In this document: piece after piece, positions 355 to 56,400 of the stretch
Numbering within the stretch: the first letter of the stretch is position 1
How the letters are laid out: each line of letters starts with the position of its first letter
DNA from: Cymodocea nodosa
Taxonomy: Eukaryota; Streptophyta; Magnoliopsida; Alismatales; Cymodoceaceae
Length of the DNA stretch: 64,000 nucleotides
Assembly: GCA_036874045.1 (NCBI GenBank)
Contig: JAZBRI010000008.1
Span: 3,301,001-3,365,000, forward strand
Direction of reading: 5' to 3'
The notes under the pieces: generated by a model
What the model was told of the DNA's origin: nothing
Seen by the model: the letters and a program-made list of their open reading frames with translations, nothing else
The model's database searches: none
Translations under genes and position numbers: made by a program

Positions 355-2118
355 ATGTCCAACTTGATGATGCGGTCTTTGCACCAAATTTTGTCTAGGT
401 TGAGCATGATAAATCACTCTGGATTCTGTAAAAATGCAGCCTTTTCTGAGCCGTCGGTACATTTTCGAGGTCTATTTAGCTCACATTTATCTTCTGTACC
501 TCACTCGTTTGAGTTGCATTGTATCTATCCTCATTTGATTCCTCCTTCCCGAAAGATGAATAAATTTCACAATGTAGGGTGTCCCTTCATCTCTGCTCCT
601 AGAACAGCAAGGTGTTTTACAAGTTCAGCCTCTTTGGCAGATCTCTCTCTAGTTCACTGTGATGGAAGTAGAGAAGATTCTTTATCTGGAGAACCCAAAA
701 AGGTGTATGAAACTGTTATGGCAAACTCTGATTCTCATCAGGACATGGAAGCTGCTCTTGATCAGCTTGGCATTAAATTGACTACTGAATTAGTTGATAT
801 TGTCATAAAAAAACTTCGGTACGAGGAGAAACTGGCTTTCAGATTCTTCGCCTGGGCTGGTCACAGAGAGGAATATACCCATGAGCATCAGGTGTTCAAT
901 GATATGATTGACATTCTATCAAGTACCAAGTACAAGGCAAAGCAGTTTGGGATAATCTGTGAGGTGTTGGACCATATGAAACGAAAGGGCAAATATTCTG
1001 TGTCTGTTGAGGCATTACTTGTGATTTTGAGAAGTTATACTGAGAAGCATCTAACCCATCTCAGTAAATTTGTGGGGAAGAAAAGAATTAGGGTGAAGTC
1101 CCAGTCAGAGATCAATGCATTCAACTTGTTTATAGATGCTCTCTGCAAGTGCAGTCTGGTTAATGAAGCTGAAGCCATGTTCCACAAAGTGAAGAAGAAG
1201 CTAATCCCCAATTCTCAGACATACAATATCTTATTTTTTGGATGGTGTAGAGTGAGAAACCCCATGAACGCAATGAAGATATTGGAGGAAATGATTCAAA
1301 TGAATCTGACCCCAGAAAATTTTACATATAATGCTGCAATAGATGCATTTTGCAGTGCTGGCATGATATCAGAAGCAAAAGAACTCTTTGAATTCATGAG
1401 AACCAAAGGTTCGACAATGTCTTCTCCTACAGCCAAGAGTTATTCCGTCATGATTGTGGCACTTGCGAAGGCTGATCAAATAGAAGAATGTTTTCAACTC
1501 TTAGCTGACATGAGAAACACTGGTTGTCTCCCTGATGTTTCAACCTACAAGAATCTTATAGAAGGGATGTGCTTGGCTGGCAAAGTTGAGAACGCCTACA
1601 AGATCTTGGATGATATGAGTAGCAGTGGTTATCCTCCAGATATCCTGACCTACAATTGCTTCTTGAAGGTTCTGTGTAACCTGAAGAAGGCTGATGAAGC
1701 ACTGAGGCTTTGCGAGAAGATGATAGAATCAGGATGTGATCCCAGTGTTCATACGTACAATATGCTGATTGCAATGTTTTATGAGATGAGGGAACCAGAC
1801 AGGGCATTTGATATGTGGCATGAGATGGACAGGAGATGCTGTCCGAGAGATGTTGAAACATATTGTGCCATGATCGATGGGCTATTTGCCTGTGGTAGAC
1901 AACACGATGCATGTTTCTTACTGGAAGAAGTGATGAATCGTGGAGTTAGATTGCCTTATCAGAAATTTGAGACTTTGCTATCAAAACTATCGGAGATGGG
2001 AAATCTCCGTGCCATACATAGACTTTCTGAACATATGGGCAGATTTTACAACCGTGCAATGGCCAGACGTTATGCAATTAGCCAGAAAAAGAAGAGCGTC
2101 AGTTTGAGACGTAGGTAG
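355..2118 (+). CDS. P-class pentatricopeptide repeat protein, probably mitochondrial
   Basis: This is an intronless gene of 587 codons. About nine tandem 35-residue PPR motifs run from residue 253 to about 563, with typical starts such as TYNILFFGW, TYNAAIDAF, TYKNLIEGM and TYNCFLKVL. The motifs are plain P-type, with no E, DYW or SMR domain. Known P-class proteins bind organellar RNA and assist its processing, stability, splicing or translation. The first 90 residues are rich in Ser, Arg and Leu and poor in acidic residues, as expected for a mitochondrial or plastid presequence. The region at 115-250 is helical and conserved-looking but without clear repeats, and the C terminus is basic. The start at 355 is chosen because an in-frame stop lies at 346. 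It resembles the Arabidopsis At1g73400-type proteins from memory, but the exact orthologue and RNA target cannot be read from the sequence. The frame is intact. Confidence 0.95.
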   Translation: MSNLMMRSLHQILSRLSMINHSGFCKNAAFSEPSVHFRGLFSSHLSSVPHSFELHCIYPHLIPPSRKMNKFHNVGCPFISAPRTARCFTSSASLADLSLVHCDGSREDSLSGEPKKVYETVMANSDSHQDMEAALDQLGIKLTTELVDIVIKKLRYEEKLAFRFFAWAGHREEYTHEHQVFNDMIDILSSTKYKAKQFGIICEVLDHMKRKGKYSVSVEALLVILRSYTEKHLTHLSKFVGKKRIRVKSQSEINAFNLFIDALCKCSLVNEAEAMFHKVKKKLIPNSQTYNILFFGWCRVRNPMNAMKILEEMIQMNLTPENFTYNAAIDAFCSAGMISEAKELFEFMRTKGSTMSSPTAKSYSVMIVALAKADQIEECFQLLADMRNTGCLPDVSTYKNLIEGMCLAGKVENAYKILDDMSSSGYPPDILTYNCFLKVLCNLKKADEALRLCEKMIESGCDPSVHTYNMLIAMFYEMREPDRAFDMWHEMDRRCCPRDVETYCAMIDGLFACGRQHDACFLLEEVMNRGVRLPYQKFETLLSKLSEMGNLRAIHRLSEHMGRFYNRAMARRYAISQKKKSVSLRRR

Positions 2119-4067: not shown

Positions 4068-7000
4068 TCAATGCAGGGCAGCTCTCTCCACCAACTCAGT
4101 GTAATCCGCGGGGACAAATGACTTCACCTTCAGATTGCTTTCTCCTGGAGATGAGTACTTCACTCCAATCACGGTGGCCAGGCCTACACCAAATAATCGA
4201 TCTATGAGCCACATGCATGGTCATGTGACATTATTATCAATGATGACTCGCACTAACTAATTTCTACATCTAACACGATCAACCACAATAGAACATACTC
4301 TGATGTATGCGCCCATACAGTAGTCTCTCCCCTCTCCAGTGTTCCAAAGGTCTGAATCTCTCCCTGGTGCTTCGCCTTCGGCCAGCCTCCCATTTTGTAC
4401 CATCACCTAGAAAAAGAACAATATGTTATGATAAAAGTGTCTGTTCTATTGGAATGCACATAATGTCCTAACTCCATCTTGCTTCGAGTGCATTAAAACA
4501 GAGGCGCATATGTGTGTCCTCACCTGCGAGACTCTTTCCTCTAGATTTCCGTCTTTTTGATTGTTGAGGAGCCCTTTCATTTGGAACTCTTGAAGTAGTC
4601 GGATTCTGCTAATCGTCAGTGTGCAAGTACATATGTGACGATCATTATAACTTGGTGAAAAGAGTTGTTCAAAATGTAAAGCTTAATCTTAACTCAGACA
4701 AAGAAAAAGGCAGTGAACTGAAATAATAGTATTACATGGGTAAAAAATTTCTTTAACAGAAATAAATGAGGCTACAAGGCCACGGGAAAGATGAATGGAC
4801 CAAGGGACTGACCTCATGTTAACAAATTAGAACTAACAATATGCCACTATAAAAATGGTAATAAACAAAATGACGGAAACATCAAGGTGGAAATCTACGG
4901 TATTCGGACTCAGTTCAACTACCACACATATATTATTATTTCTTCTTTAAGAACCAACATAGGCAGCATATCTCAAGGAAGACAGCACATGATATGTTCT
5001 AAACAAAATTCATGACAGGATAAACATAACAAATGTGACCCACCACATTGTGTTCTCCCATGATGCTTGAACTTTCTACATGCCCATCCACTGTAGCATC
5101 TGCCCCCATATTCAACCTTAATGGATCTGTTAAAAGAAAGTTAATCAACTTGAGAAAAAATGTGATTAAATGACTATTGATGAGAACGCTGCCAAAGAAA
5201 TGTACTAATACCAGGTAATAACAGTAAAAACATAACATGAGATGCCTTTTTAAGATTCATGTGCAAAGACAAGAATTTTTAAAATATCAACGAAAGGCAA
5301 ACCTGATGAGATAAAAAAAGAGAGGAATTCAATACCTTCCGAAAATTCTGTACGTTCATTCTCTTCATGCAATGCCTCATCCACCTAAAACAAAAAAAAT
5401 TTAAAACTTAGATTCTTATCTACAGATGCCTTTATAATTGTGTTCCCAAGTATACAATCAATAATGCTTCCGACTAGTCACTCACATTTTGTGGGTGAGC
5501 AACCATATTTGAGGTAACAACCTCGAACCTTTTAACATTATTCTAAAACTCAAACTAGTATATTACACCAACAATCTAAGCCATCATCAACCACATAAAA
5601 TTTTTCGTCCATATATTTCCATCATAAACTACATAAATTTAATTTTTTCACACAATTCCTAACCAGGTAATTTTAAGTCTTCCTCTACTTCTTTTAATTT
5701 CTTCTACATTAATTAATTCTTCTCTCCTAACCAATGCATTACTTAGCTACTTAAGGATATGATCAAGCTATCTAAAGAAGATTTTCTCTCATTTTATCCT
5801 CAACTGGTGTAACTCCTATTCTATTCCAAATAAAATTGTTTTTTAGAATATCCCTTACGGTATTACAACTCAGCCATCTAATCAACCACATTCTTAATGA
5901 CATTAATTTTTTACATATAATCATACTCTATAGCCCAACATTCTGAGTCATAAAGTATAATCAAGCAAATGACAATTTTATCACATAACACTCCAAAAGC
6001 ATTTCTACATTTTATGTATCCTGTTTTAATTCTATAAACAACATTCACTATAATTTCATCATTGCTACGTATTATAGATTCAAGTATTTAAAAGTCTTAC
6101 TTTTATGAATCTCATAACCATCTAAATGTATACTTTGACCATTATATTTTTATTGAACCTACAATCCATATATACAATCTTTGACTTCATCTAAATCCTT
6201 TGAACTTTAAAGTATCTCTCCGTAATTTTAATTTAAAATTAATTTCTAACTTACTTTATCAACTAAAACTATGTCATCAACAAATCGCATGTACAGGAGT
6301 ATTTGTCCTTGAATATCTTTAGTTATTTCATACATATTCAAAACAAATAAATATGAACTAAGGACCATTGGTATAAATTTATATCTATTAGAAAATCAAA
6401 CTAGTATATTAAAATTTAAAATTTGCTAAATAAAACAATCAATTTTAAAAAAATTTAGGAGTGAATATACAGAGAACCATGCTTTATGGTTGAGGATCTC
6501 ATGTGTACAATAAAGAAGGCATCTAATTGACCGCTTGCATTTTGTGGGCATGCATTCATATTTTGGGCGACAACCTCAAACCTTCTATCATTATCCTAAA
6601 AATCACACTAATATATTAAAATTTAAATTTTGCTAAATAAAACTTAGGTGTGCATGGACCATGCTTTACAGTTGTGTTCTCATGTATGCAACCAAGAATG
6701 TGTCTAATTGGCCACTTACATTTTGTGGGTGAAAATGCATATTTTTGGTAACAACCTTAAAATTAATCTTTTGTATTAAAATTAAAATTTTCTAGATAAG
6801 ATGAACAAAATTTAAAAAAATAAAATTTTGATGTGAATCTACAGAGGACCATGATTTATAGTTGTGTTCTCGTGTATACAATCGGGAATGCATCTGATTT
6901 GTCACTTACACTTTGTGGGTGAGCATCCATATTTTGGGTAACAACCTCAAACCTTTTATCATTATCCTGAAAATCAAAGTGGAATGTTAAAACTTAAAAT

Positions 7001-10000
7001 TAGCTAAATAAACGAAAAAAATTTTAAAAAATAAAACTTAGATGCTTATCTACAGAGGACCACACTTTATTGTTGTGTTCCCATGTATAAAATCAGGAAT
7101 GCATCTGATTGACAACTTACATTTTGCAGGTGAGCCTCCATATTTTGGGTAACAACCTCAAAACTTTTATCATTATCCTGAAAATCAAAGTAATATATTA
7201 AAATTTTCTAAATAAAACAAAAAAATTTTAAAAATAGAACTTAGGTGCATATTGACAGATGATCATGCTTTGCAGTTAAGTTTCACATATACAGTCAGGA
7301 ATGCCACTGATTTCTCACTTACATTTTGTGGGTGAGCATCCATATTTTGGGTAACAACCTCAAACCTTTTATCATTATCCTAAAAATCAAACAGGTATAT
7401 TAAAATTTAAAATTTGCTAAATGAAACAAACAAAATTTGAAAAATAAAACTTAAATGCTTATCTACAGAGGGCCATGCTTTATAGTTGTATTCCCATGCA
7501 TACAATCAGGAATGCATCTGATTGACCACTTACATTTTGTGGGTGAGCATCCATAGTTTGGGTAACAACCTCAAACCTTTTATCATTATCCTGAAAATCA
7601 AACTGATATATTAAAATTTAAAATTTTCTAAACGAAATGAACAAAATTTAAATAAATAAAACTCATATGTGGATCTACGGAGGACCATGCTTTATAGTTG
7701 TGTTCTCACGTATACAATCAGGAATACTGCTGATTTGTCACTTACATTATGTGGTTGAGCATCCATATTTTGGGTAACAACCTCAAAACTATTATCCTTA
7801 TCCTGAAAATCAAACTGACATATTAAAACTTAAAATTTGCTAAATAAAACTAACAAAATTTAAAAAGAATAAAATTTGATGCTTATTTACGGTGAACCAT
7901 CCTTTATAGTTGTGTTCTCATGTATACAATCAGGAATGCTGCTGATTTGTCACTTACATTTAGTGGGTGAGCATCCCTATTTTGGGTAACAACCTCAAAC
8001 CTTTTATCCTTATCCTGAAAATCAAAGGGGTATATTAAAATTTAAAATTTGCTAAATGAAACAAACAAAATTTGAAAAAGCTTAGATGCTTATCTACAGA
8101 GGACTACACTTTATAGTCGTGTTCCCACATATACAATCAGGAATGCATCTGATCGATCACTTACATTTTGTGGGTAAGCATCCATATTTTGGCTAACCTC
8201 AAACCTTTTTTCATTATCCTGAAAATCAAACTGGTATATTAAAATTTAAAATTAGCTAAATAGATAAGTTCACTACAGGACAGTTCTAATGAGCATGCCT
8301 TTTCATTTGAGAGGCTTTGCTTTCCAACAGAACCAGCACCACTGCCATGAACAGACCTTCCAGAGTTCTCCATTGATTCGGCAATTGAACAGTATGATGT
8401 GTTTCCAGTTGGTTTGTCACACTCTTTAATTGTTTGGGACTTTAAAATCGTACCAAGGCTTAACCTTTTTGTGCTGTTACCTGGAGGTGAAGGATTGTCA
8501 TCTCTCGAGGATGAAGTTCTAGAGGATTTCAAACCATTGGAGCTTGGCATGCTTATGTTTTTACTAAATGGAGCAAGGGTACCATTCATACTAGTAACTG
8601 GTAAGGTAGGTTGTTCAGTACTTGCATGACATTGGTTTGCATTCATAGCCTCATATTCAGTGGCAGACAAAGGTTCTCTGGCAGAAGAGTCAACAGTAGA
8701 TAATTCAGAGAATTGAGCCAGAGCACCAGTAAGTGAATCACTAGCAAGTACATCACTGCTGAAGCTAGTCAGCATCTGTGTGCTGGTCTCAACAGGAAGA
8801 TTCTTTTTGTCCTTGGCTGATTTGAGGATGGAGGTAAGGGATGTATCTGTTGGACACTCATCAACAGATATCTCACAAGAAATGTCGTCACCCCCCTCAG
8901 TGTTTGACGACACCAAAGTCCCACCAGGGTATAATTTGCTGGTTTTTTTCATAGATGGAGTGATACTATCATTTATGCTCGTATTGAGAGTGCTCTGGGA
9001 CTTCAAGATCTTATCAACACTACACTTGCTTCCACTCTTACTAGGTGGGGCACACCAATCATTCATGTTGATAGCTGGAAAACGAGCAACAGCAACACCA
9101 TTTCTCAATGAGGACAAAGGTTCCAAAAAGAGTGGTGCATCATCAGGAAGCCACGTGTAGGGATCTGTCAGTGTGTCCTTTTGGAGATTTTGTTTTTGCA
9201 AAAATGAAATTGTGGCAAGCGGTTTCCTTTGAACACTTGTTTTTGTCTGTGTATAAGGAGGGGTATCAGGAGGGGTGATGGGAAGTTGTAACTTGTCCAC
9301 AACCATTGGCTTGAACTTGAGGCACTCTTGCAGCAAAGCCGCATCTTCTTGATCATACAATGCTTCACATGAAGAGGATAATTTATCAATAATAATATCA
9401 GTCCCATTTTCTTTGGCAGCTACAAAACCTGCTGAGCAGATTATCCACTATCAAACTGATGGACAATTCCTTAGAAATGATTAATATAAACATATATTAA
9501 TAACAAATTATATAATAATATGCTGTTAACTGACTTTCCAGTTCTGTGGCAGCAGGGAATTGGGAACCAGTTGTTTCCATTAAAGAACTGTTGTATTGAA
9601 TGTGCACAGCAGATTTGGGCAGGCTCAAATTTCTATTTGCATCAACTTCTCGTGACAGTGGAAGGGCCTTTGCAGAATCAGCCAATTCCTGGGAGAAGTG
9701 ATTTAGACTAGTCCTCCTCCTGCCAACAAATGGACATCAATGTTCACATTGAATTTTCTCTGTAAGAAATGGCATTGTATGATAGAAGAAATATACAGCA
9801 AAAACAGCTGGGCAGTTATGTCAGTGGAGAGATGACAGAAGAAATAAAAACAGCAAGTTTAAGGATTGTGGTAAAGAATAGAAACAGTGTTTCACATGAT
9901 AGGCACTACAACGTGAATCCTTCACTGGTGAAGAAATGCTTTATTTAGATAAGCAAGCATACCGTAGGAGTCCTGGACGACGCTGACGCCTAGATCTTAA

Positions 10001-11008
10001 TATGTTGTCCAACACAGGTTCGGCAGTAACATCTCCCCTCAGTTTCTTTAGCTCTTTTTCAGCAACTTTCATCGAAAAAAAGAATCAACAACAAACGAAC
10101 TTGAATTGCAGACGAGAATCACATGATAAATTCAACAATGATGTATAATAATAATAATCCAATGAGGTGACTAATGAATGATCAAGTTGGCCTTACGATC
10201 ATTCCTTTCAATCGCTGCAAAATACTCGTCAGGGTCCACAATATGGTCCGCATTCAGTGTCAAATTCATACCACTAGATTCCCGACTTCTGCCAAAAAAA
10301 AGCAGTGGAAACTGTTGTTAGTTTTCGCACCAGTCAAACTCTATACACCAAGTAGAAGTATCGAAATGCAGCCAAAAAGAACGTGAAGGCTTCCTTTCTT
10401 TTGAAGATGAAAATAATGTGAAATGTGCTCATTACTTGCCAGTACAAACAAACTAATGCATAATAGCGTTGTCTCTTCTGATGTGAACATTGTCTGTGTG
10501 TGTGTGTGTGTGTGTGTGTTTTGAAAAAAAAAATACCGCTTTCACCTCGGATTTCCGCTAGACACAAAAAAACCACATTTTTAGTGTTCTTTGCAATCAC
10601 CTTTTGTTGGGTAACATGGAAAACCTGGGCCTCTTCCTCCCCAACCCGAGCCCCTGCCTCCTCTCTTTCCCGTCCCTATCCTTCCCTTCTTCCACGCCGT
10701 CATTGGCGTCCACGCTAAGTGCCTCCACAATCTGTCCGGCAACCTCCTTTTCCGACGAGTCCAACGCCTGCGAACACGCGGACAAGCAAACCAGCACATC
10801 ACATCAGCCCAATTCCGACTACGGAGGAAGGAAAAAAAACAAAAAACACATGTCCTTGGTGGCTGTGGCGGGGAGCGACCTCCAGAAAGTAGCTCACGGC
10901 CATCTCGGGGTCGAGACCAACGGTGGCTGTGGCGCAGGAGTGGGACGTGGACCGAATGGTCCGGGGGAGGAGGAAGGGCCCGTCGAGGAAGGCGAGTCCG
11001 CGGTCCAT
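4068..11008 (-). CDS. CENPC: Centromere protein C (CENP-C), 21 exons
   Basis: CENP-C links CENH3 nucleosomes to the kinetochore. Exons in transcription order: 11008-10880, 10767-10601, 10288-10197, 10065-9963, 9719-9535, 9428-8299, ten small exons between 8218 and 5486, 5384-5336, 5126-5044, 4605-4524, 4406-4299, 4183-4068. All phases agree and the sum is 2802 bp (933 codons). The N terminus has the plant pattern FLLPRTIRS (about 12-20), then RKRPRFS (87-93) and [10 protein letters not shown]. The nucleosome-binding CENP-C motif is [19 protein letters not shown] at about 869-887, followed by [15 protein letters not shown] and the conserved tail [19 protein letters not shown]. The large exon (residues about 226-602) is Ser/Thr-rich and low in conservation. 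The predicted protein is longer than the roughly 700 residues of Arabidopsis, largely because of the small-exon array. The donor of the large exon is the weakest point: only a GC donor at 8298 keeps the frame. Confidence 0.93.
5486..8218 (-). repeat. CENPC: Tandem array of ten small CENP-C exons with their introns
   Basis: Units of about 181-212 bp, each one exon plus one intron, are repeated. In transcription order the exons are 8218-8165 (54 bp), 8014-7958, 7802-7746, 7590-7534, 7379-7323, 7177-7121, 6966-6910 (57 bp each), 6767-6720 (48 bp, diverged), 6595-6539 and 5542-5486 (57 bp each). The usual protein unit is [19 protein letters not shown]. Most copies have acceptors reading TTTTCAG and donors reading GTAAGT; the copy at 6539 has a GC donor. 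Phase 0 is open in all ten copies, whereas phase 1 hits a stop at once and phase 2 hits one in the copy at 7958. Length changes are multiples of three. The array adds about 186 residues between the large exon and the C-terminal exons. Function is unknown. Confidence 0.9.
5566..6395 (-). mobile_element. RTE-type LINE 3' fragment in a CENP-C intron
   Basis: Read on the minus strand, this piece encodes a decayed reverse transcriptase end with [11 protein letters not shown] (the FxDD active-site block, about 6268-6300). Further on come scraps typical of plant RTE-like non-LTR elements, including a degenerate [12 protein letters not shown] stretch near 5790. A 16-bp direct repeat, TCAAACTAGTATATTA, flanks it at 5550-5565 and 6396-6411. 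That repeat is the target-site duplication and comes from the intron part of the exon array. It is 5'-truncated, with many stops and frameshifts, and lies in the intron between the exons at 6595-6539 and 5542-5486. Confidence 0.8.
10495..10519 (+). repeat. (TG)n microsatellite
   Basis: About twelve TG units lie in CENP-C intron 2 (10289-10600). Confidence 0.9.
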
Positions 11009-22676: not shown

Positions 22677-23789
22677 TCAATTACACCATTTCCAAAATAT
22701 AAATTCTAGATGATTGTTTACTTGTTGGATTATCTTTTCTAATTTCTCTATTCTAGCTACTTGTTCAATTAATACTTCATAACTTATGTTTTTCTCATTT
22801 ATATTTTCTCCTCCTTGGAAATTGTTGTTTCTCCAAGATAAATTCGGGTGATTTCTCCAATTAGGATGATAAGAATTTCCCAAGTCTTCTCTTTGGTTTC
22901 TAGCATAAATAATATCTAAGTCATTTATGTTTGCATTCTTTTCTGCTAACTTTTGATTTAATGATAACTCTTCTATTTTATTTGTTAATTCATTTAATTT
23001 CACCTCAAGCATAGTATTGGAATCTATTTCATGCATTCCTCTTGGCAATTTTCTTTTATCTACAATAACTTCAGCCAAATTTTCCCACTGTGCAGTTCTT
23101 TTTGCAAAATTCTCTAAATATGTCAATGCTTCTTAACTACATAATTTTAAAAATCCATTTTGACAAGTAGATTCTAATAAAGATTTTGTTGAAACATCTA
23201 TGCCTTCATAAATTATACCTATTAGTTGTGCTCTACTCATTGCATTATGTGGGCATTGAGTCAATAAATCTTTAAATCTTTCACCCTGTTTTTGGCTACA
23301 AATTAATATTTCTTTCTTCTTTTTAATTATTTGATGTGTTGGATAGTATTTTTCCAGAAAAACAAAGTAAAATTCAGTCCATGTAGAAATTGAATCAGGC
23401 GACATAGTATATAACCATCTCTTAGCTCTATCTTTTAAAGCAAAAGGGATATATCTAAGTTTAATAGCATCTATACTCATGTTCGGCATTCTCATCATTT
23501 GACAAACTTCGTTAAATTCTCTAAGGAAATAATAGGCATCCTCTCTTTCTAATCCATGAAAATGTGGCAATTGACTAATATAATTAGATTTCAGTTCAAA
23601 CCTATCTCCCTCAAAGTTTGGCAATCGAATACATGAAGGTTCATCAATTAATTCAGGATACAGAATCTCTCCTAATGGTTTTTCTACTAGAGCAGTCATC
23701 TCTACGTTCTTTTTTAAAGAAAGGTTAGCTACACCCCAAAGAATTTCGTTAAAGTTTAGTTCAGAAAATTTTTTAGTACCCCTTTGCAA
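22677..23789 (-). mobile_element. gag fossil, Athila-like Ty3/gypsy
   Basis: The minus strand carries a retrotransposon gag domain (RYIPFALKDRAKRWLYTMSP, typical of the Athila/Tat group) and then a region with YHPNWRNHPNLSWRNNNFQ, the gag C-terminal signature of this group. It is a fossil and is broken. The protease, RT and integrase pieces at 27.8-33 kb lie upstream on the same strand, so more than one element copy must be represented. Confidence 0.85.
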
Positions 23790-23823
23790 TGAAAATTCCT
23801 AGATAGGTGTTCTTACTAATCGT

Positions 23824-24129
23824 TTAATGCTTAGAGAACGAGTCCATGTGCTCATAAATAAATAACAGAAGATTAATTACATACCAGTCTGAAGCTTTCC
23901 ATTCTATAAATATTTGCTGTCGGATGAAGGTTGAATCAGCTGCTTCTCCTTCCAGTTCCTCCAACGCTTTCTCCTTTCTCTTAAAAGTGCTGGTAACTCG
24001 TAAATAACATTCTGTTTCATATATATACTGTGCATCCATCAAGTGAATAAATCTCATTGCAAGAACGTATCTTGCAACGTGCATCGTGGTTCCTGTTTTA
24101 ATGGGTACGTATACCACTACTAATTTCAA
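23824..24129 (-). mobile_element. Unrecognised ORF in the Athila-like nest
   Basis: A 101-codon frame just upstream (in transcription) of the gag piece. It contains ARYVLAMRFIHLMDAQYIYE and a charged KRKEKALEELEGEA stretch. It could be the end of the extra ORF seen at 24.8-27.0 kb in another copy, or part of the gag leader. No domain was recognised with confidence. Confidence 0.3.
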
Positions 24130-24179
24130 ATTTTGGTAACCGCTAAACCAACGAAGTTTTGTTTGTGGTTAAAAGAATA

Positions 24180-24375
24180 ACTGTTCTGCTTAATCCACGA
24201 ACTAACCTCATTGAGTTACAGATTACTCAACAGAATACAGTCGGTTACTATTGCTAACTCCACGGACTAACTTCGTTGATTTATAGATAACTCAACGGAG
24301 TGACCTTATATTATATTACTGACCTCGTGGAGTTACGGTTAACTCAACGGAATTACTTCGTTGAGTTAACACTTG
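24180..24375. repeat. Array of TAACTCAACGG-type hairpins
   Basis: Three or four successive short inverted repeats, for example CTCGTGGAGTTA-CGGT-TAACTCAACGGA near 24336-24363 and TTCGTTGATTTATAG-ATAACTCAACGGA near 24270-24298. The same class recurs at 17.9, 19.0, 22.4, 27.2, 30.2, 34.5, 36.8 and 37.2 kb. Confidence 0.7.
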
Positions 24376-24789
24376 GCAACTTCTAATTTTCACTCTCGTA
24401 AGTTTTCTATTCTGTTTTTTTTTTTTTTCTTTGTCATTCTGCTAACTGTAATAAAGTTAAATCTATGTCATTAATGCCTCATTTTGATTAAAATACATTT
24501 AAATCTGAACATTATATAAAGATTTAAATTGCATGTCATTTTATGTTATGCAGAATTTACATTTTACCTTATAACATGCAGAAATTTTTAAGCAGTTATT
24601 CTGTCATTCAGCAAATTGTAAATCTGTTACATATTCATAAAGTTCCACAAATTACATAATATTCAATAAATTCTATTCATTTCACATTCAAATAAGTATG
24701 AAAATTACATCTGAAAAATTATATTCATTAATATGAATCAATTACATTACAAGTACATCATACAATTTCATACAATTTTACACAAGTAG

Positions 24790-27035
24790 ACGAACAATAC
24801 AATTTAATCTCTATGCCTAAGTTCATCTACTTCCTTTTGGAGTTTTTCTAATTACTGCTCTAATTGATTTATCCTCTCTACTGCTCCTGCAATTTCTCCA
24901 GAAGGTACAGCTAATTCTGCAGCTACAAAATTTCTGTATTCTTTCACTGAAATGGTTCTAGATCTTATCCTTTTTGATGTCCATTTAGTGAAATCAATAC
25001 TATCCACCATCAATAGTGGAATCAAATCTCTATAAAATAATTTCTTCTTTACTGTTTTCAGCTTGGAGATAAAAACTGCAGACTAATTTATTTGGATCTT
25101 ATTTACAACTGCATACGTGGCTCATTTGACAAATTGACTTAATTCTATGTCATGGCCTTATCGTTGATAGACATTCTTAATCAAAATGTTAGCTACCATG
25201 TGTGCTTTATCATTTAAATGCTTCAATCTGTTTAATAATGGCACACCAGGATTGATAGCTAAACAATCCTTAATTTGCTGCTCAGTCTATTCAACTGCAG
25301 TTGTATCGTCCAAAATTTTTGTTCCTTCATTCTTTAAACCAAATATGTTGTGGAGAAGCTCTAGTGTTATCTGTACATCAGCTTCCTCCACGTTTGAAAT
25401 TAATTCTCCTTCTCTTAAATTTGCATAGAAACAGGGTACTAAATTCTCATATACTGCATGCCCTCTATCTTGAGATATAAATTGCAGTAGACTTTGGAAT
25501 TCAAATAGATCTTTGATTTCTTGCATTCCATCCCAATTTACTGGTCTACTGTAAATAATATCGTAACCCCTTATTTCTTGGTATTTGATATAAGCTTCCT
25601 GACTACAAAAATGTACTTCATTCAAAATTGTTGTTTCAGTCGGGTCAGGAAGGTGACTTTGTTGCTCCAGAGTGGTTTGCTCTTGCTCTTCCTCTAGCAT
25701 AGGCTGCATTTGGACATTCTCTTCAGATTCCTGAATTTTTGCTTTTGCTTCTGTCTGTAGTGGTGAGCCAGTAGAACTCTCCACTCTGTCTTGAATTCTT
25801 TCCATAATTTGCTGAAGAGTTTCTTGCTCTTCAGTGGAATCTGTGAAATTATTTTTGTCCAAATGGTTTCTTTCAGCCTCTTCATTTTCTACTCTTTCTT
25901 CTTCCTCCTGACTACCAATCTGTTCTGTTACTGTTCTTTCTAATTCTGTAACAGATTGGAATGGAGTCACGGGCAATTCAGTTTCTACCCTAATTTCTAT
26001 TTCTTCTTGTACAGGCTGCAAACTAATTTTAGCCTGATTTTTTTCTTTTCTTTGCTCCTCCTGCTCCTCCTTAGATTCGGATAGTAGGTTAATAAAAATC
26101 TGCTACATAGGCCCTGTAAAAATTGGTAATTCAGGTTTAATTTCTTTATAATCAGGCACTTTTTCTTTTTCTTTCTTTTTTCTGATTAGTTGTGTCTGTT
26201 CTTCCTCTTCATCTTCTGAAATTAAATCTACAAAAATAGGCTCTGCAGGCTTTCGAACCACAGGTACTGGCTCTTCCTGTTTAATTCTTCCAATAATTGC
26301 TGGTCTCAAAGGACTAGCTTCAGCTTCTTTTGCAGCAGTTCTGGCAGTAGCTTCTTGATGTTGTTCTACTTTAATTTTATATTGGGTTTTCAACTTTTCT
26401 GCATCCCTCTTTTTGTACAGTGCATCAAACACCAGATGTGCTTTAGCCACTACCAAATCTTCTGATTCTCCTTGATTTTTTCCAACTTGAACCAGTTCTG
26501 CAAATTCTCTTATTTCTTCTTCAGTTGAAGGCCCCATCATTTCTGCTCGTGTCAATGGCTTAAATGGTGGAACTGAAGGTCCAAACTACTGCTCTTCAGG
26601 ATCAGGTCTTTCAGTAGTTGGTTCCTCCCGTTCTTCAGTTGCCTCTTCATTTGCTTTCCTTTCTTGCTCCCAGATCACCCGTTTAGCTTGTCTATAGATT
26701 CGTCTTTTGAACTAGAGTCGGGACTTATGCTGGATTAATTCTAGGGCAACTTCATTATTTGGCCTTATTTGTCTTTCCATACTGACAGCTATTTCTGTTG
26801 CTATTCTGATTCGTGTTTCCATTATTTGAGGTATTCGTATATCCATATCTACTAAATCTCTTCTCAACTTGAAAAGCTCTGATTCTACCTTCTGTAGCTC
26901 TTTCTCTCTTGTCGTATTTCTGATCTTCTGCCGCATGTGCCACTCTTCTGATTCCTTCAAAAATTCTAATGTATCAACAACATTTTCCCAGAATTCAGGC
27001 GTCATCTTCATCATCGTGGAGTTACACAACAACAC
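24790..27035 (-). mobile_element. Extra ORF, copy A, of the Athila-like element
   Basis: On the minus strand, in order, come: a coiled-coil start (MTPEFWENVVDTLEFLK), an acidic Glu-rich middle, then a globular part with FCSQEAYIKYQEIRGYD and LVPCFYANLREGE, and a coiled-coil end. The globular part resembles the putative plant transposon protein domain (Pfam Transposase_32 type) found in extra ORFs of plant LTR elements. It sits after the hairpin region, in the place where Athila elements carry a non-gag-pol ORF. It is a fossil with a few breaks. A second copy lies at 28.76-30.04 kb. Confidence 0.6.
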
Positions 27036-27192
27036 GTAATCACTCTGATTTCTACTGTTCTAGATTCTAAATGATTTATCGGATAATGCCCCCAAAACCC
27101 TAGGTTTTAGTTTAAGTAAGCACTAAGTTTAGGCAGGTAATCGGGTCATTTCCCGAACCAACTATTACTATTTTATCTGCGGTCTTAGCTAC

Positions 27193-27293
27193 AGTACTCA
27201 GTTGTGTTACAGGTAACTCAACAGAATAAGCTCGTTGACTAACTCAAGACTTAACGGAGTAAGCTCGTTGAGTTAAACGTAACTCAACGGACT
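27193..27293. repeat. TAACTCAACGG-type hairpins
   Basis: Contains CGTTGAGTTA-AACG-TAACTCAACG at 27266-27289, a perfect 10-bp stem, and a weaker hairpin before it. It lies just upstream (minus strand) of extra ORF copy A and matches 30193-30293 upstream of copy B. Confidence 0.75.
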
Positions 27294-27349
27294 CCCCGTA
27301 CAAGCACATATAATAATAAAAATATTACAGAGAATAGTTTTTCTGTTTT

Positions 27350-27640
27350 TTTTTTTTTACAAGTTTAACCGATAATATGCTTCGGTCAGACCTAAATATT
27401 TTTTTATTTTTTTATCTATCTTTCGGTTGAACCGATACTATGTTTCGGTAAAACAAAATTTTTTTTTTCTGAAAATTAATATACAATTTTTTTCCGGTTT
27501 AACCGATACAATGCTTCGGTAAAACCAATTTTTTTTAATGTTCTGGTCATACCGATGCTACGCTACGGTCAGACCTAAATATTTTTTAATTTTTCGGCCA
27601 AACCGATGGATCCAGTCAGTTGAACCGCAACTATTTTTAT
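27350..27640. repeat. ACCGAT...TTCGGT hairpin array
   Basis: Four or five successive short inverted repeats of the form ACCGATACTATGTTTCGGT are separated by T-rich spacers. The same array in shorter form is at 30355-30520. Both lie between pol-type coding pieces and the extra ORF. Confidence 0.75.
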
Positions 27641-27830
27641 GTTTTATATATATTTTTAATGTTTTTATTTTTAATTTTTTTCCGATGGTCATACCATTTA
27701 TCTTCCAGAAATATATAGGTTAATTCAGGAGGTAAATGTTTTAATTCTAAATGATGCCCATCAGAAGCTAGAGCTCCTAATTGAACATCATCATTTTTTA
27801 AATTATTTTCTTCCTGATCTCTTTCTATAT

Positions 27831-28283
27831 TTATGCTTTCAATTTTTCTAAAGTTTCAAAATTGATTTGCCTATTTAATTCTTCTTGAATCACATCATCT
27901 AACATATCTCTTTCATCCTCTAAAAAGTCTATGGTATGTAAGGACATTTCTAACTCCTCAAACCTTTCTGGTTTGAAAGTATTTAATTGAGTATCCTCCT
28001 TACCATATGCTAATTTCATTACTCTAGTTTTACAATTTATAACAGCCCCTGATGTTGCTAAAAATGGACTTCCCAAAATTAAAAATGTATCACTTTTTTT
28101 ATGTTTAATTTGTTGGGAATCCAAAATTACAATATCAATAGGATATATAAAATTCTTGATTTTAATTAAGACATCCTCTATTTTTCCTCTAGGGTATCTT
28201 ATACTTCTATCAGCCAATTGAATAACCGTACTAGTAGGAGTTAAGTCTTCTAATCCTAAGGATGCAAATATATCACTTGGCAT
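27831..28283 (-). mobile_element. Aspartic protease fossil, Athila-like
   Basis: Carries the clan features of the Athila/Tat protease region: LADRSIRYPRGKIEDVLIK, the hydrophobic IDIVILD strand and the ILGSPFLATSGAVI block. On one side it abuts an LTR-derived stretch and on the other the hairpin array, without gag, RT or integrase between. This copy is therefore a shortened element, and the fossil is incomplete. Confidence 0.8.
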
Positions 28284-28494
28284 AACAGATAACTCAACGG
28301 ACTTCCTTCATTGATTTAACTATAAAACACGTGCAAAAATAACAACTTAAGTTTATAACGCTAACCTAACGCGTTGCCTTAGTGTATTTTCATGTAATTC
28401 AACGCGTGCAGTTATACTAACTTAACGAGTTATAACGTAAGTAAATCTACTAGCTCTCAACACGTGTCAACAGTAATTTAAACATAAAATAACA

Positions 28495-28755
28495 TTCTGG
28501 AGAGTTACAGGTATAACTATCTGATACTCAGATGCATTTTAGGATACTTAAGAATTTCACAGCTTGCAATTTACCGATAGTTCATAAATGTACTAAATTA
28601 ACATTAATTCCCCAAAATTAAGTAGATTCTTCAATTAAAGCATATAATAGTGCAATTATAACATAATGGCTTAATTCTCATATGATAAGCTAAATATTAT
28701 GCAATTAACCATCATTTAACCGTTAATAATATGCACTTTTTCATTCTAAACAGCC
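28495..28755 (-). mobile_element. LTR-end piece, Athila-like
   Basis: It runs from a class 2 hairpin stretch to the ATTCTAAACA end and matches 34065-34314. It directly adjoins extra ORF copy B at 28756, which marks a junction between two element copies. Confidence 0.7.
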
Positions 28756-30043
28756 GGCAGAACTCTCCACTCTGTCTGGAATTCTCTCCATAAATTGCTG
28801 AAGAGTTTCTTGTTCTTCAATGGAATCTATGAAATTATTTTTGTCTAAATGGATTCTTTCAGCCTCTTCATTTTCTACTCTTTCTTTTTCCTCCTGACTA
28901 CCAATCTGTTTTGTTACTATTCTTTTTGATTTTGTAACAGATTGGGATGGAGTCATAGGCAATTCAGTTTCTGCCCTAATTTTTGTTTCTTCTTATACAG
29001 GCTGTAGACTAATTTCAGCCTGATTTTCTTCTTTTCTTTGCTCCTCCTACTCCTCCTCAGAATCGGATAGTAGGTTAATAAAAATCTGCTCCACAGGCCC
29101 TATAAAAATTGGTACTTCAGATTTAATTTCCTTATATGCAGACACTTTTTCTTTTCCTTTCTTTTTTGTGATTAGTTGTGCCTATTCTTCATCTTCTAAA
29201 ATTAAATTTACAAAAATAGGCTCTATAGTCCTTCGAGCCACAAGTACTGGCTCTTCCTGTTTAACTTTTCCTATAATTACTAGTCTCAAAGGACCAGCTT
29301 CATCTCCTTTTGCAGCAGGTTTGGCAGCAGTTCTGGCAGTAGCTTCGTGATGCTGTTCCAATTTGATTTTATATTGGGCTTTCAACTTTTCTGTAGCATT
29401 CTTTTTGTAAAGTGCATCAAACACTAGGTGTGCTTTGGCCACTATCAAATCTTCTGATTCTCCTTGGTTCTTCCCAACTTGAACCAGTTTTGCAAATTCT
29501 CTTATCTCTTCTTCAGTCGAAGGCCCCATCATTTCTACTCGTGCCAATGGCTTAAATGGTGGAACTGAAGGTCCAAGCTACTGCTCCTTAGGAACAGGTC
29601 TTTCAGCAGTTGGCTCCTCTTGTCCTTCAGTTGCCTCTTCTTCATTTTCTTTCCTTTCTTACTCCCAGATCACCCATTTAGCTCGTCTACAGATTCGTCT
29701 CTTGAACCAAAGTCGGGACTTACGTTGGATTAATTCTAGGGCTACTTCATTGTTTGGCTGTATCTTTCTTTCTTTACTTAATGCAATTTCAGTTGCCACT
29801 CTAATTCATGTCTCCATTATTTGTGGTATCTGTATTTCTAATTCAACCAAAATTCTTCTCAAGTTAAAGAGTTTTGATTCTACCTTTTGTAGCTCTTTCT
29901 CTCTTGTTGTATTTCTGATCTTCTACCTCGTGTGTCATTCTTTAGATTCCTTCAGAAACTGTGCAGTGTCCATTGCCTCTTCCCAGAATTCAGGCGTCAT
30001 CTTCCTCATCGTGGAGTTACACAACAACACAGAATCACTCTGA
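28756..30043 (-). mobile_element. Extra ORF, copy B, partial
   Basis: Close relative of copy A (shared block MMGPSTEEEIREFA, then VFDALYKK and a Glu-rich region). It is truncated at the LTR junction at 28755, so the Transposase_32-like part is absent here. It is a fossil with several breaks. Confidence 0.65.
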
Positions 30044-30192
30044 TTTCTACTGTTCTAGATTCTAAATGATTTGTCGGATAATGCCCCTAAAACCCTAGGT
30101 TTTAGTTTAAATAAGCCCTAAGTTTAGGCGAGTAATCGGGTCATTTCCCGAACCAACTATTACTATTATATCCGAGGTCTTAGCTACAGTAC

Positions 30193-30220
30193 TCCGTTGA
30201 GTTAACTGTAACTCAACGGA
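30193..30220. repeat. Perfect 12-bp-stem hairpin
   Basis: TCCGTTGAGTTA-ACTG-TAACTCAACGGA: the two arms are exact inverted repeats with a 4-base loop. It is the best single example of the class 1 hairpins, and further copies follow up to 30293. Confidence 0.9.
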
Positions 30221-30354
30221 ATAAGCTCGTTGACTAACTCAAGACTCAACGAAGTAAGCTCGTTGAGTTAAGCGTAAGTCAACGGACTCCCCATACAAGC
30301 AAATATAACAATAAAAATATTACAGAGAATAGTTTTTCTATTTTTTTTACTGGT

Positions 30355-30520
30355 TTAACCGATACTATGTTTCGGTCAGACCTAAATATTTTTTATTATT
30401 TTTCTTTCGGTTGAACCGATACTATGTTTTGGTAAAACTAACATTTTTTTTTCTGAAAATTAATATACAATTTTTATGTTCCGGTCATACCGATAGATCC
30501 AGTCAGTTGAACCGCAACGA
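30355..30520. repeat. ACCGAT...TTCGGT hairpin array, second copy
   Basis: Shorter version of 27350-27640, located between the integrase piece (30712) and extra ORF copy B. This position suggests that the array is the normal spacer after pol in this family. Confidence 0.7.
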
Positions 30521-30711
30521 TTTTTATGTTTTATATATATTTTTAATGTTTTTTTTTATATATAAACATAAAAACTGATTTCTCACTAAGTAAAGCTCGA
30601 GTAGTCCTCTACTCTGACTTCTTCTATAATTCCAAAGGAGCTTTTTGGTGTTTTCATAATAGGTTTAAGTCTTTGTCCATTTACTTTAAAGATATTCTGA
30701 TTTTTAGGATT

Positions 30712-31704
30712 TTAAATTTCAATAGCTCCATAAGGATAAACTTTTCGCACTATGTAAGGTTCTACCCATCTAGATTTCAATTTTCCTAGATGGTTATGGA
30801 GTCTAGCCATATAAAGATATACTTCTTGCCCCATTTCAAAGCTTTCAGGAATAATTTTTCTATCACGCCAGAATTTAATTTTTTCTTTTTCTCTTACAGT
30901 ATTCGAATAAGCTTCATTTCTAAATTCTTCTAATTCAATTAGTTGCATTTTCATATTTTCTGCAGCTTGATTTAAATTAGTGTTCAGAGTTTTTAATGCC
31001 CAATAAGCTTTATGTTCTATTTCAACAAGTAAATGACAACTTTTTCCATATACTAGCCTAAAAGGTGACATACCTAAGCTTGTTTTATAAGCAGTTTTGT
31101 AAGCCCAAAGTGCATCTATCAATCTATTAGCCCAATCTGTTCTAGTAGGATTTACTACTTTTTCCAAGATTAATTTAATTTGTTTGTTTGCACTTTCTAC
31201 TTGTCCACTTGTTTGCGGATGATATGATGTTGCAATTTTGTGGTTTACTCCATATTTTTTCATTAAGGCTTCAAAACTTCTATTACAGAAATGAGTTTCT
31301 CTATCACTGGTAATAGCTTTAGGTATTCCAAATCTTGCAAAAATATTTGTTCTTATAAATTGTATTACCACTTTATTATCATTAGTTTTTGTAGGAATAG
31401 CTTCTATCCATTTAGAGACGTAATCCACCCCCAACAATATGTAATTAAATTGATTAGACATAGGAAATGGACCCATAAAATCTATTCCCCACACATCAAA
31501 GATTTCAACCTCAACAATAAGATTAAGAGGCAACATATTCCTCTTTGATATTCTTCCTATTTGTTGACATCTTAAACAACTTAAGCAATATTTATGAGCA
31601 TCTTTGAATAGTGTTGGCCAATAAAACCCACATTGCAGAATTTTTGCAGCAGTTTTCCCTGAACCAAAATGTCCTCCACAAGCTTGGTCATGACAGAAAG
31701 ACAA
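30712..31704 (-). mobile_element. Integrase fossil, Athila-like
   Basis: A zinc-binding start (H..ACGGHFG...CLSCLRCQ), the integrase core with [10 protein letters not shown] and YVSKWIEAI, the HPQTSGQVE block and a C-terminal region ending before the hairpin array. There is no chromodomain, as expected for Athila. It is a fossil; this part looks nearly whole. Confidence 0.9.
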
Positions 31705-31884
31705 TATGCTCGGATATTCAGTTTCTGGAACACACCTCCTTAAAACCAGATCAAGACATTTCTTAAATAAGTATGGGTCTTCCTAATAGTAATATTTGAC
31801 TCTTGAGAAAAACAATTTCTTATCCTGTCTATTCCAATCCTTAGGTGTTAAACCAATAACTTAGTAATTAACTATGTCTGCATA

Positions 31885-33029
31885 TCAAGGCATTGTGTTA
31901 ATGGTCATTAATTGTTCATTAGGAAAATTATCCTTAATTTCAATATTTGATTTTTCTATTTTTAATCTTGATAAATGATTTGCTACTACATTCTCACAAC
32001 CTTTTTTATCTTTAATTTCTAGATCAAATTCTTGTAATAATAATATCCATCGGATCAATCTAGGTTTAGTTTCTTTTCTCTTTATTAGATGTTTTAGAGC
32101 TGAATGATCCGTGTATACTATTACTTTAGCCTCAATCAGATATAATCTAAACTTTTCTAAAGCAAACACAACAGCTAATAATTCTTTTTCAGTAGTTGTG
32201 TAATTAACTTGAGCATCATTTAAGATTTTGCTTGCATAATGAATTACTCTAGGAGATTTTTCTATCTTCTGTCCTAACATTGCTCCTACAGCAAAATCAA
32301 AAGCATCGCATATTAATTCAAATGGATGGTTCCAATCAGGTGCTTGAATTATATGAGTTGAAATTAAGCTAGTCTTAAGTTTGAAAAATGCTTCATTGCA
32401 ATTTTTATCAAAGTTAAATGAGACATCTTTTAATAGATTAGTTAAAGGTCTAGCTATCTTGCTAAAGTCTTTAATAAATCTTCTATAAAAACCAGCATGT
32501 CTTATGAATGATTTAATATCTTTTACCGATTTAGGTTCTGGTAGATTAGATATTACTTCTATTTTAGCTTTATCTACTTCCAACCCTTTTTTAGAAACAA
32601 CATGCCTTAAGACTATTCCTTGTTTAACCATGAAGTGACATTTTTCCCAATTTAAAATCAGATTTTTTTCCACACGACATTCTAATATTTGGTCTAAATT
32701 GCTTAAACACACTTCATATGAGTTTCCATATACAATAAAATCATCCATAAATATTTCTAAAAATCTTCAGTCATTCTAGTAAATATGCCCTGCACACACC
32801 TTTGAAAGGTAGTTGGCGTATTGCATAATCTGAATGGCATTCTTTTAAAAGCATAAGTTCCATTAGGACAGGTGAAAGTTGTTTTCTCTTGATCCTCTAA
32901 TGCTACTGGAATTTGATTATATCCTGAATACCCATCTAGGAAACAAAAATATTCTTGCCCTGCTAATCTTTCCAGCATTTGATCTATAAAAGGTAAGAGA
33001 AAATGATCTTTCCTAGAAGTTTGATCCAA
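31885..33029 (-). mobile_element. Reverse transcriptase / RNase H fossil, Athila-like
   Basis: Shows FLDGYSGYNQIPVALEDQEK and KRMPFRLCNTPTTFQRC of the RT fingers and palm, [10 protein letters not shown] of the active-site region, [19 protein letters not shown], and an RNase H part with [17 protein letters not shown] and [12 protein letters not shown]. It lies upstream of the integrase on the same strand. The end next to 33030 is interrupted by a foreign LTR. Broken, with a small number of breaks. Confidence 0.9.
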
Positions 33030-53445: not shown

Positions 53446-56400
53446 TTCAAATCCAATCCCTAATTCAATCCTTAATTCTTCATCATGCAAAAAATGATGA
53501 TTACAACACCTTATATAGGAATCCATAAATGGATCCTTACATGGATCTCAACAAGAATACATAGAGTACCATGCTTTTCCTCAAGCTGGAATGTATATGT
53601 TTTTCATTTCAAGCTTGTTACAAATAATTTCAAAAACATTACAACTCAACCCTTTTGTAAGAATATCTGCGAGCTCTTGTGATGATGGAACATATGAGGT
53701 GAAGATGATCCCTTTGGTAACTAAATCATGAACATGGTGATAGTTAATCTTAATATGTTTTGTTTGCTCATGAAAAGTTTCATTCTTGTCTATATGAATT
53801 ACTACTTGGTTGTCACAATATGTGGGTATTGATTCTTGAACCTTTATGCCTATCTCCTGCAGTAGAGATTTAACCAAGATATTTCTCTACTAGTCTGAAC
53901 CATCAATCTATACTCTGCTTCTACACTTGAGCAAGAAACAACATTTTGCTTCTTGTTTCTCTAGGTTACTAGATTACCCTTTACAAAGGTAAGGTAGCTT
54001 GAAGTAGACTTTCTGTCTTCTTTGTCACCAGGGTAGTTTAAGTTAGAGAAGGCTTCAACCCTGAAGTGACCATGAGCTTGATAAAGAAGACCTTTACCAA
54101 GTCAACCTTTGATATTGATGAGTACCCGTTGAACTCTAGCCTAATGAACAAGTTCAGGCTAATGCATAAATTGACTTAGTAGTCCAACAAGGTGAGTTAT
54201 GTTAGGCCTGGTGACTATAAGATAGATAAGCTTTCCTATTAGACAGTGATATCTGTCTGGATTGTCTAGAAGTTTTGATGACTTATCCTAAAAGGGAGGA
54301 TTTTGTTCAATAGGAGTGTGCTCAGGTTTGCATCCAAGATTGCTAGTCTCCTTTAGTAGATTTAAGACATATTTCCATTGAGATAGAACTAGTTTTTCCT
54401 TTAAGTTGGTAAACTCAATGCCCAAAAAGTAACTAGGTCGTTCCATGTCTTTGGTATTAAAGACTTGCGAAAGATGTGCTTTAGTCTTGACAATCTCAAC
54501 ACTATCATTGCTTGTGAGAATAATGTCATTAACATAGACTGTCAAGATAATGCATCTACGGAAAGTGTGTCGAATAAAGATAGAGTGATCCATTGTACAC
54601 CGTCAAAAACCATCAGAGAACATCACTTAGCTAAACTTGTCAAACTAGGCTCATAGACTTTGTTTGAGGCTGTAGATAACCTTCTTTAATCTACATACTT
54701 GGTTTTCTTCTTGAGTGTTGGAATAGGATTGTCTATATTTTTGTATATTGATACAAGGAAAAGAAATACATATATATATAGGGAGAAGGATCTATATATG
54801 GATTCGTATACTCGATTACATCTAATATAACACTCCCCCTCAAGTTGGAGAATATATATCTATCATTCCCAGCTTATTACAAAGGTAATTAAAAGAGCTA
54901 CGACATAACGCCTTGGTGAAAATGTCCACTCGCTCTTCAAAAGATGAGACATGAGGAGTGTGAATAATACCCTTTGCTACCAAATCTCGGATATAGTGGC
55001 AATCAATTTCTATGTGTTAGGTTCGTTCATGGAAGATTTCATGTTGTGCAATATAAATCGTAGCTTGGTTGTCACAGTGCATAGTAATGAGTTCTTCTAC
55101 AGTCATCCTAAGTTCCTCTAAGAGGGAGTGGAGCCATATTAACTCACAACTAGTGAGTCGTATAGATCTGTATTCGACTTCAGCACTTGAACAAGACACC
55201 ACATTTTGTTTCTTACTCCACCACGTAACCAGATTCCCTCTTACATTGGTAAGATATCTAGAGGTAGATTTTCTCTCTTTTGTCCTCTGCAAAATCAGTA
55301 TTAGAGAACACTTCAATCTTCAAGTGCCCATTTTCTTGATATAACAACCCATTTCCTAGTGTTCCCTTGATGTAGGCTAATACTCTTTGGGCTCCTACCT
55401 AATGCACTAGTTGAGGCTTATGCATAAATTGACTTAGTAATCCCACAGTATAAGAAATATCGGGTTTAGTGACAGTGAGGTAAATCAACTTCCCAACTAA
55501 CTTCCTGTAGCTACTTGAATCTGTCAATTCCCTAGAAGACGAGTCCCAAAAAGGGGGATTCTGTTTGATAGGTATAGTTTCAGATTTGCAACTCAAACTT
55601 CTTGTCTTTACAATCAAATCAAGAGTGTATTTCCATTGGGATAGTATCATTTTTCCCTTGGAGTAAGCAAACTCAATCTCAAGAAAATATCTTGATTTTT
55701 CAAGATCCTTTGTTTCAAAGATCTTGGTAAGATGTTCTTTGGTCCTGGTAATGCCCTCACTATCATTACCTGTACGTAGAATATCATCAATATATATAGC
55801 TAGAACAGTATAGTTACAATTAGAATGACGAATGAATACAGAGTGATCAACAATGCATCTTTTGAATCCTCCAGCAACTAGTACTCCACTCAATCTGTTA
55901 AACCATGCTTGGGGGCTTTGTTTCAACCTGTAGATAGCTTTTCTCAATCTGCAAACTAGTTGTCCTTTTTGGGTGACATACTCAAAGGGTTGTGCCATGT
56001 AAACCTCTTTTGCCTGATCACCATAGAGAAAGACATTCTTTATATCAAGTTGATGGAGTTCCCACTGTTGGTTGACTGCTATAGACAGTAGAACTTTGAT
56101 AGAATTAAGATGGGTAACATGTGAGAATGTTTCAGCATAGTCAACTTCATATTCTTGTGTAAATCCCCTTACCATCAAACGAGCCTTGTGTCTCTCTACT
56201 GAGCCATCTGGTTTGTATTTCATTGTAAAGACCTACTTGCAAAAGACAATGTTTGCATCAGTTGGACAAGGAATCAGCTCTCATGTGCCACGTGACCATA
56301 GTGCTTCTATCTCTTGATCTATGGCAAGCTTCCATGTAGGATTCTTTAAGGTTTCTTGGTATGTCTTTGGTATATTCTCAGACATGACAGTTAAAATAAA

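Follow-up and report, generated by a model that had tools for sequence, protein, structure and literature searches.

CENP-C is needed at every cell division and yet evolves fast, for which the usual evidence is positive selection on substitutions. Arrays of many tandem exons of similar size are known from animal genes with alternative exons, such as Dscam. In plants, a small-exon duplication within CENP-C has been described for the grasses. According to the available sections of Talbert et al. 2004 (PMC549713), plant CENP-C genes conserve their exon structure in two parts, one running from exon 1 up to the start of exon 6 and the other made up of the final two exons, and among the plants compared there duplication was found in grasses only. 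The duplicated grass unit is a pair of an acidic and a basic exon (25-28 and 30-38 residues), of which rice has tripled the pair 9-10, besides an older homologous pair 11-12, and positive selection was reported for wheat and barley within this duplicated part (same sections of PMC549713). The available part of PMC6514446 describes a sugarcane case in which a copy of the last seven CENP-C exons was placed elsewhere and became fused to a different gene.

The CENP-C gene of the seagrass Cymodocea nodosa is similar to the grass genes in having a tandem duplication of small exons in a poorly conserved region before the CENPC motif, with repeated gains and losses. However, the grass unit in the available sections of PMC549713 is an acidic plus basic pair in few copies, while here a single acidic exon of 18-19 residues is present ten times; a difference from the grass case had already been claimed in an earlier note on this DNA and holds on this ground. 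The seagrass gene has no duplicated acidic/basic unit of the grass type; its downstream acidic and basic exons are single copy. The sugarcane gene, as far as the available part of PMC6514446 goes, is likewise a case in which part of a plant CENP-C gene was copied, but the copy lies at another place and is without a small-exon array. In the available parts of the literature, no many-copy exon array was found in plant CENP-C, and nothing close was found among the papers listed on tandem exons generally.

Results

The gene model and its identity

The window, i.e., the whole stretch of 64,000 nucleotides analysed, is part of a 374.6-Mb, 28-contig assembly (contig 8, positions 3301001-3365000). The gene model comprises five small exons, a large exon, the ten-copy array and five further exons, the final ones coding for the CENPC motif and the conserved C terminus of plants (Table 1). 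With all ten array units it is open over 933 codons, and without them it encodes 747 residues; exon 1 ends at either 10898 or 10880, depending on which of two donors (10897, 10879) is used. By this one gene model, the sixth exon is the large one, five small exons precede it and the last two exons are conserved. A pentatricopeptide repeat gene with a single open frame lies nearby (355-2118 (+), PPR_2 E 6.8e-70).

We confirmed the earlier assignment to CENP-C. The CENPC motif of the predicted protein is matched by a pair of PDB peptides from CENP-C (E 0.016, to residues 870-890, and E 0.065; marginal values for short peptides), and the C-terminal half matches 185 proteins at E <= 0.001, with many of the 120 listed named centromere protein C. 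By its C-terminal CENPC motif and plant-type conserved end, the predicted product is that of a CENP-C gene, which is apparently intact. With the C-terminal half as query, the best local alignments among the matches listed were to Zingiber, which ranked first (72% over 19% of the query), and Magnolia (56% over 27%); in another search Magnolia and Asparagus were among the best-scoring. The model protein aligns through to the end of 16 relatives, of which three grasses are the lowest (24-26% identity versus 28-38% for the 13 others). The precomputed family PF28563.1 is carried by all 18 homologues of one search and by 120 of the 120 listed of the other; an hmmscan of the model protein against Pfam returned 0 families. 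No protein or transcript from the host species was found among the matches listed in three database searches, none of which exceeded 72% identity (candidates of about 101-1633 residues; 18 of 18 matches listed with 8,000 candidates scored, 120 of 185 listed, and 1 of 1).

A small exon in ten tandem copies

A unit of about 200 bp, made of one small exon and one intron and repeated ten times between the fast-evolving middle of the protein and the CENPC motif, had been proposed from the sequence at 5486-8218, and unit, placement and span were all borne out, the span to the exact nucleotide. A scan with a 57-nt consensus, in which at least 36 of 57 positions had to agree, gave ten matches, all on the (-) strand, and zero on the plus strand. 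The repeated unit is an exon of 54-57 bp in phase 0-0 together with its own intron, in ten tandem copies from 8218 to 5486 (-), so that every array exon begins and ends between codons. TRF reported a period of 212 with 7.1 copies (score 1950) at 6774-8261, with a two-unit period of 413 bp as an alternative fit. A search of the genome with the unit peptide returned at least four matches, all four inside the array.

Table 1 Features of the CENP-C gene and its exon array (positions in the window).
Feature	Position	Strand	Basis or remark
CENP-C gene, ATG to stop	4068..11008	(-)	exon model without internal stop; CENPC motif
Large exon upstream of array	8299..9428	(-)	frame closes at 8239; exact 3' end uncertain, candidates include an in-frame GC donor at 8298
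Array exon copy 1	8165..8218	(-)	54 nt, one codon shorter; start corrected
Array exon copy 2	7958..8014	(-)	consensus scan and exon model
Array exon copy 3	7746..7802	(-)	consensus scan and exon model
Array exon copy 4	7534..7590	(-)	consensus scan and exon model
Array exon copy 5	7323..7379	(-)	identical to consensus
Array exon copy 6	7121..7177	(-)	consensus scan and exon model
Array exon copy 7	6910..6966	(-)	consensus scan and exon model
Array exon copy 8, damaged	6720..6776	(-)	canonical acceptor lost; cryptic AG would give 6767-6720 (48 nt)
Array exon copy 9	6539..6595	(-)	GC donor
Decayed LINE remnant, intron between copies 9 and 10	5563..6390	(-)	borders by eye; flanking duplication of about 20 bp, one mismatch
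Array exon copy 10	5486..5542	(-)	consensus scan and exon model
First post-array exon (VDEALHEE...)	5336..5384	(-)	entered in phase 0
Acidic single-copy exon	5047..5126	(-)	alternative end 5044; donor at 5046 weak
Basic single-copy exon directly upstream of CENPC motif	4524..4608	(-)	exon model, charge
CENPC-motif exon	4299..4406	(-)	exon model; PDB peptide match
Last exon, conserved C terminus and stop	4068..4183	(-)	exon model; alignment to relatives

The distance from one exon start to the next is 181-212 bp in eight cases and about 1050 bp from copy 9 to copy 10; correspondingly, the introns between copies 1 and 9 measure 124-155 nt and the last one 996 nt. The wide spacing is caused by a LINE remnant, which we take to be RTE-like and which holds a reverse-transcriptase-like piece, FVDDIVLVD; its RVT_1 match is weak (E 0.002, below the Pfam cut-off). 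Elsewhere, the window contains retrotransposon pieces at 23133-32748 (-), with gag at 23133-23789, an integrase at 30712-31704 and an RNase H with a weak reverse transcriptase match at 31885-32748 (-), as well as an RVT_2 reverse transcriptase piece at 55399-56223 (-) (E 9.6e-50) and a tandem pair of a 153-bp unit with 91% matches at 62827-63113.

Frame 0 is open in all ten copies, which sum to 186 residues. The other frames do not fit, since frame 1 meets stops in copies 2 and 9 and frame 2 in all ten. The array carries a net charge of -12 and the basic exon adjoining the CENPC motif one of +7.

Splice signals

Eight of the ten copies (1-8) have the donor GTAAGT, copy 9 has GCAAGC and copy 10 has GTGAGT; a canonical AG acceptor is present in nine, that of copy 8 being deleted. 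Judged by these signals, copies 1-7 and 10 look good for splicing, copy 8 is probably skipped and the inclusion of copy 9 is doubtful. The earlier figure of about 186 added residues is therefore an upper limit, because copy 8 has lost its acceptor, so that the full length requires a cryptic AAAAG acceptor there, and copy 9 has a GC donor. For the same two copies, the earlier reading that all ten exons are spliced in is doubtful as a whole; it would fit the eight copies with good splice sites.

The most probable alternative is that the array is an old tandem repeat within an intron, mostly or wholly skipped, whose open frame would be inherited from a single ancestral exon. We consider this unlikely. 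One dead and one weak copy speak for such a relic, as does the LINE inserted within the array; on the other hand, GTAAGT has been kept in eight of ten copies despite an intron difference of about 22%. The relic would also fit the weak donor before the array. A scan with a rough weight matrix found no strong in-frame GT donor ending the large exon upstream of copy 1. The best in-frame donor near the end of this exon is the GC at 8298 (score -1.43), giving an 80-nt intron; in-frame GT sites near the end score below -5, a GT farther upstream at 8751 scores -1.48, and better GT donors at 8480 and 8356 lie in phases 1 and 2. The same matrix gave low scores to other donors of the model too (-2.46 at 5046 and -0.56 at 10879). 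Yet this problem would exist even if the whole array were skipped, since the exon at 5384 is likewise entered in phase 0 and needs the same upstream donor; the doubt is therefore neutral with respect to the array.

Constraint on exon and intron

Against an intronic relic, the exon columns of the array are conserved relative to the introns. With copy 8 excluded, the difference is 0.115 across exon columns compared to 0.22 across intron columns, a contrast reached in 1 of 20,000 column permutations; using only ungapped proximal intron columns, the values were 0.120 and 0.244 (2 of 20,000). Purifying selection on the repeat protein is not indicated, because synonymous and replacement changes are both reduced (4 versus 13.5 expected and 25 versus 50.9 expected, respectively, under the intron mutation spectrum, with each site counted separately). 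Copy 10 has a further change that alone would create a stop, but a second change in the same codon turns it into serine. The array exon is thus conserved, but the pattern is not that of protein constraint and could equally be explained by splicing signals or gene conversion. The lack of an excess of synonymous over replacement change is also what the relic would leave behind.

A low difference alone does not mark coding sequence, because an AT-rich stretch near the 3' end of the intron is more conserved (0.047) than the exon. The 20 intron columns directly preceding the exon (0.174) are no better conserved than the intron. Frame retention was too weak to be taken as proof of coding and, in favour of the relic, is hardly above chance: in simulations, zero stops in nine copies had a probability of 0.07 at the intron rate and 0.29 at the exon rate, or 0.03 and 0.11, respectively, with an assumed indel rate. 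Codons 6-9 (FEVV) are free of replacement in nine copies, copy 1 being without one V codon; a run of at least four untouched codons anywhere had a probability of 0.036 in random draws, a weak and after-the-fact result.

Similar to animal arrays of the Dscam type, the seagrass gene has many tandem exons of similar size, and one or few of the ten could be chosen per transcript, as in animal exclusive exon clusters. The intact exons are indeed symmetric and nearly equal in size, and their introns are similar. We regard such a cassette as quite improbable, because the Cymodocea nodosa copies are so alike that the choice would change little and nothing here points to exclusive choice; moreover, we know of no exclusive exon cluster in a plant.

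Age and origin of the array

The array copies are old. Their introns differ pairwise at about 22% of sites (mean 0.22), which makes the array neither recent nor a product of assembly. An assembly artefact or a non-functional CENP-C duplicate is very improbable, since intron differences of around 20% go beyond what mis-assembly creates, every exon of the model has an open frame and the C-terminal end shows good conservation. Kinship among the introns is mosaic, with copies 1, 4 and 6 at 86-89% identity and copies 3 and 7 at 85%, and support values in the tree were 0.08-0.86. The mosaic introns and the two-unit TRF period would fit repeated unequal exchange of one or more units. In the part upstream of the array no repeats were found (best self-score 44, shuffles up to 45).

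Internal duplication in other plant CENP-C proteins

The search for the 19-residue unit in other CENP-C proteins that the earlier note had proposed was run as a profile against 130 other homologues and did not detect the unit; nothing was significant (best 4.1 bits, E 0.37). Attempts to align the unit with one particular exon in other species gave an ambiguous result, which was set aside.

Internal duplication was surveyed in 56 representatives, obtained by clustering at 60% identity the 131 proteins fetched, a set of the best relatives listed rather than of all plants. A self-match cut-off of 45, positive in 109 of 131 proteins, was dropped because shuffles reach 54; the cut-off of 59 used instead lies above every shuffle (maximum 54). 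At this cut-off, 37 of the 56 representatives have an internal duplication, at the protein level only. Among these 37, 33 are tandem-like and most are not grasses; both copies lie between residue 200 and the CENPC motif in 35, in 11 the duplication ends at most 80 residues from the motif, and the copy spacing is 25-110 residues in most. Units of at least 12 residues at exact spacing number seven in Cymodocea nodosa (ten in all) versus at most four elsewhere (P0037 and P0053). Segment lengths point to about eight copies in P0037, with a shorter unit of 8 residues, and to about four 59-residue copies in P0017 (Cephalotus); P0035 (Dioscorea) has two 66-residue copies.

The other flowering plants are thus similar in that the same protein is duplicated, nearly always in the same middle region, with units that differ between lineages. 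Their duplications are known from proteins alone, in contrast to the exon array of Cymodocea nodosa, which is known from gene structure. These protein data suggest that internal duplication upstream of the CENPC motif is widespread in flowering plants, compared to the grasses only in the available sections of Talbert et al. 2004 (PMC549713). The novelty claimed earlier has to be narrowed accordingly: the copy number and the single small exon stand out, but internal duplication as such is less isolated than it seemed, given the 37 of 56 representatives. The array is an extreme case of an internal duplication frequent in plant CENP-C, in which the single-small-exon unit and the copy number are the distinctive parts.

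Discussion

We favour the reading, with a probability of roughly 0.6, that one small phase 0-0 exon was multiplied together with its intron in an apparently intact CENP-C gene, and that most units are spliced and expand an acidic spacer. Repeated unequal exchange would have expanded the number of units. Because a unit that is gained, lost or skipped leaves the frame unchanged, the number of units could drift freely. With most units spliced in, the product would carry 151-170 added residues of acidic repeat, which, if disordered as we assume, would lengthen the linker leading up to the basic stretch and CENPC motif. Such a linker may act through its reach or, more speculatively, through weak multivalent binding by the FEVV core; the earlier note had suggested that the array could be an interaction region or a spacer. 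The repeat itself would probably not bind DNA, given its acidic charge (-12) and its place ahead of the basic stretch (+7). A further step would be that copy number, changed by unequal exchange without a cost to the frame, sets the length or the number of FEVV motifs and in this way tunes kinetochore strength against driving centromeres, an extension that we consider improbable.

A frame-neutral exon, free to be gained or lost, would give CENP-C a second, faster route to change, and the copy number of the array could be compared between populations and related species.
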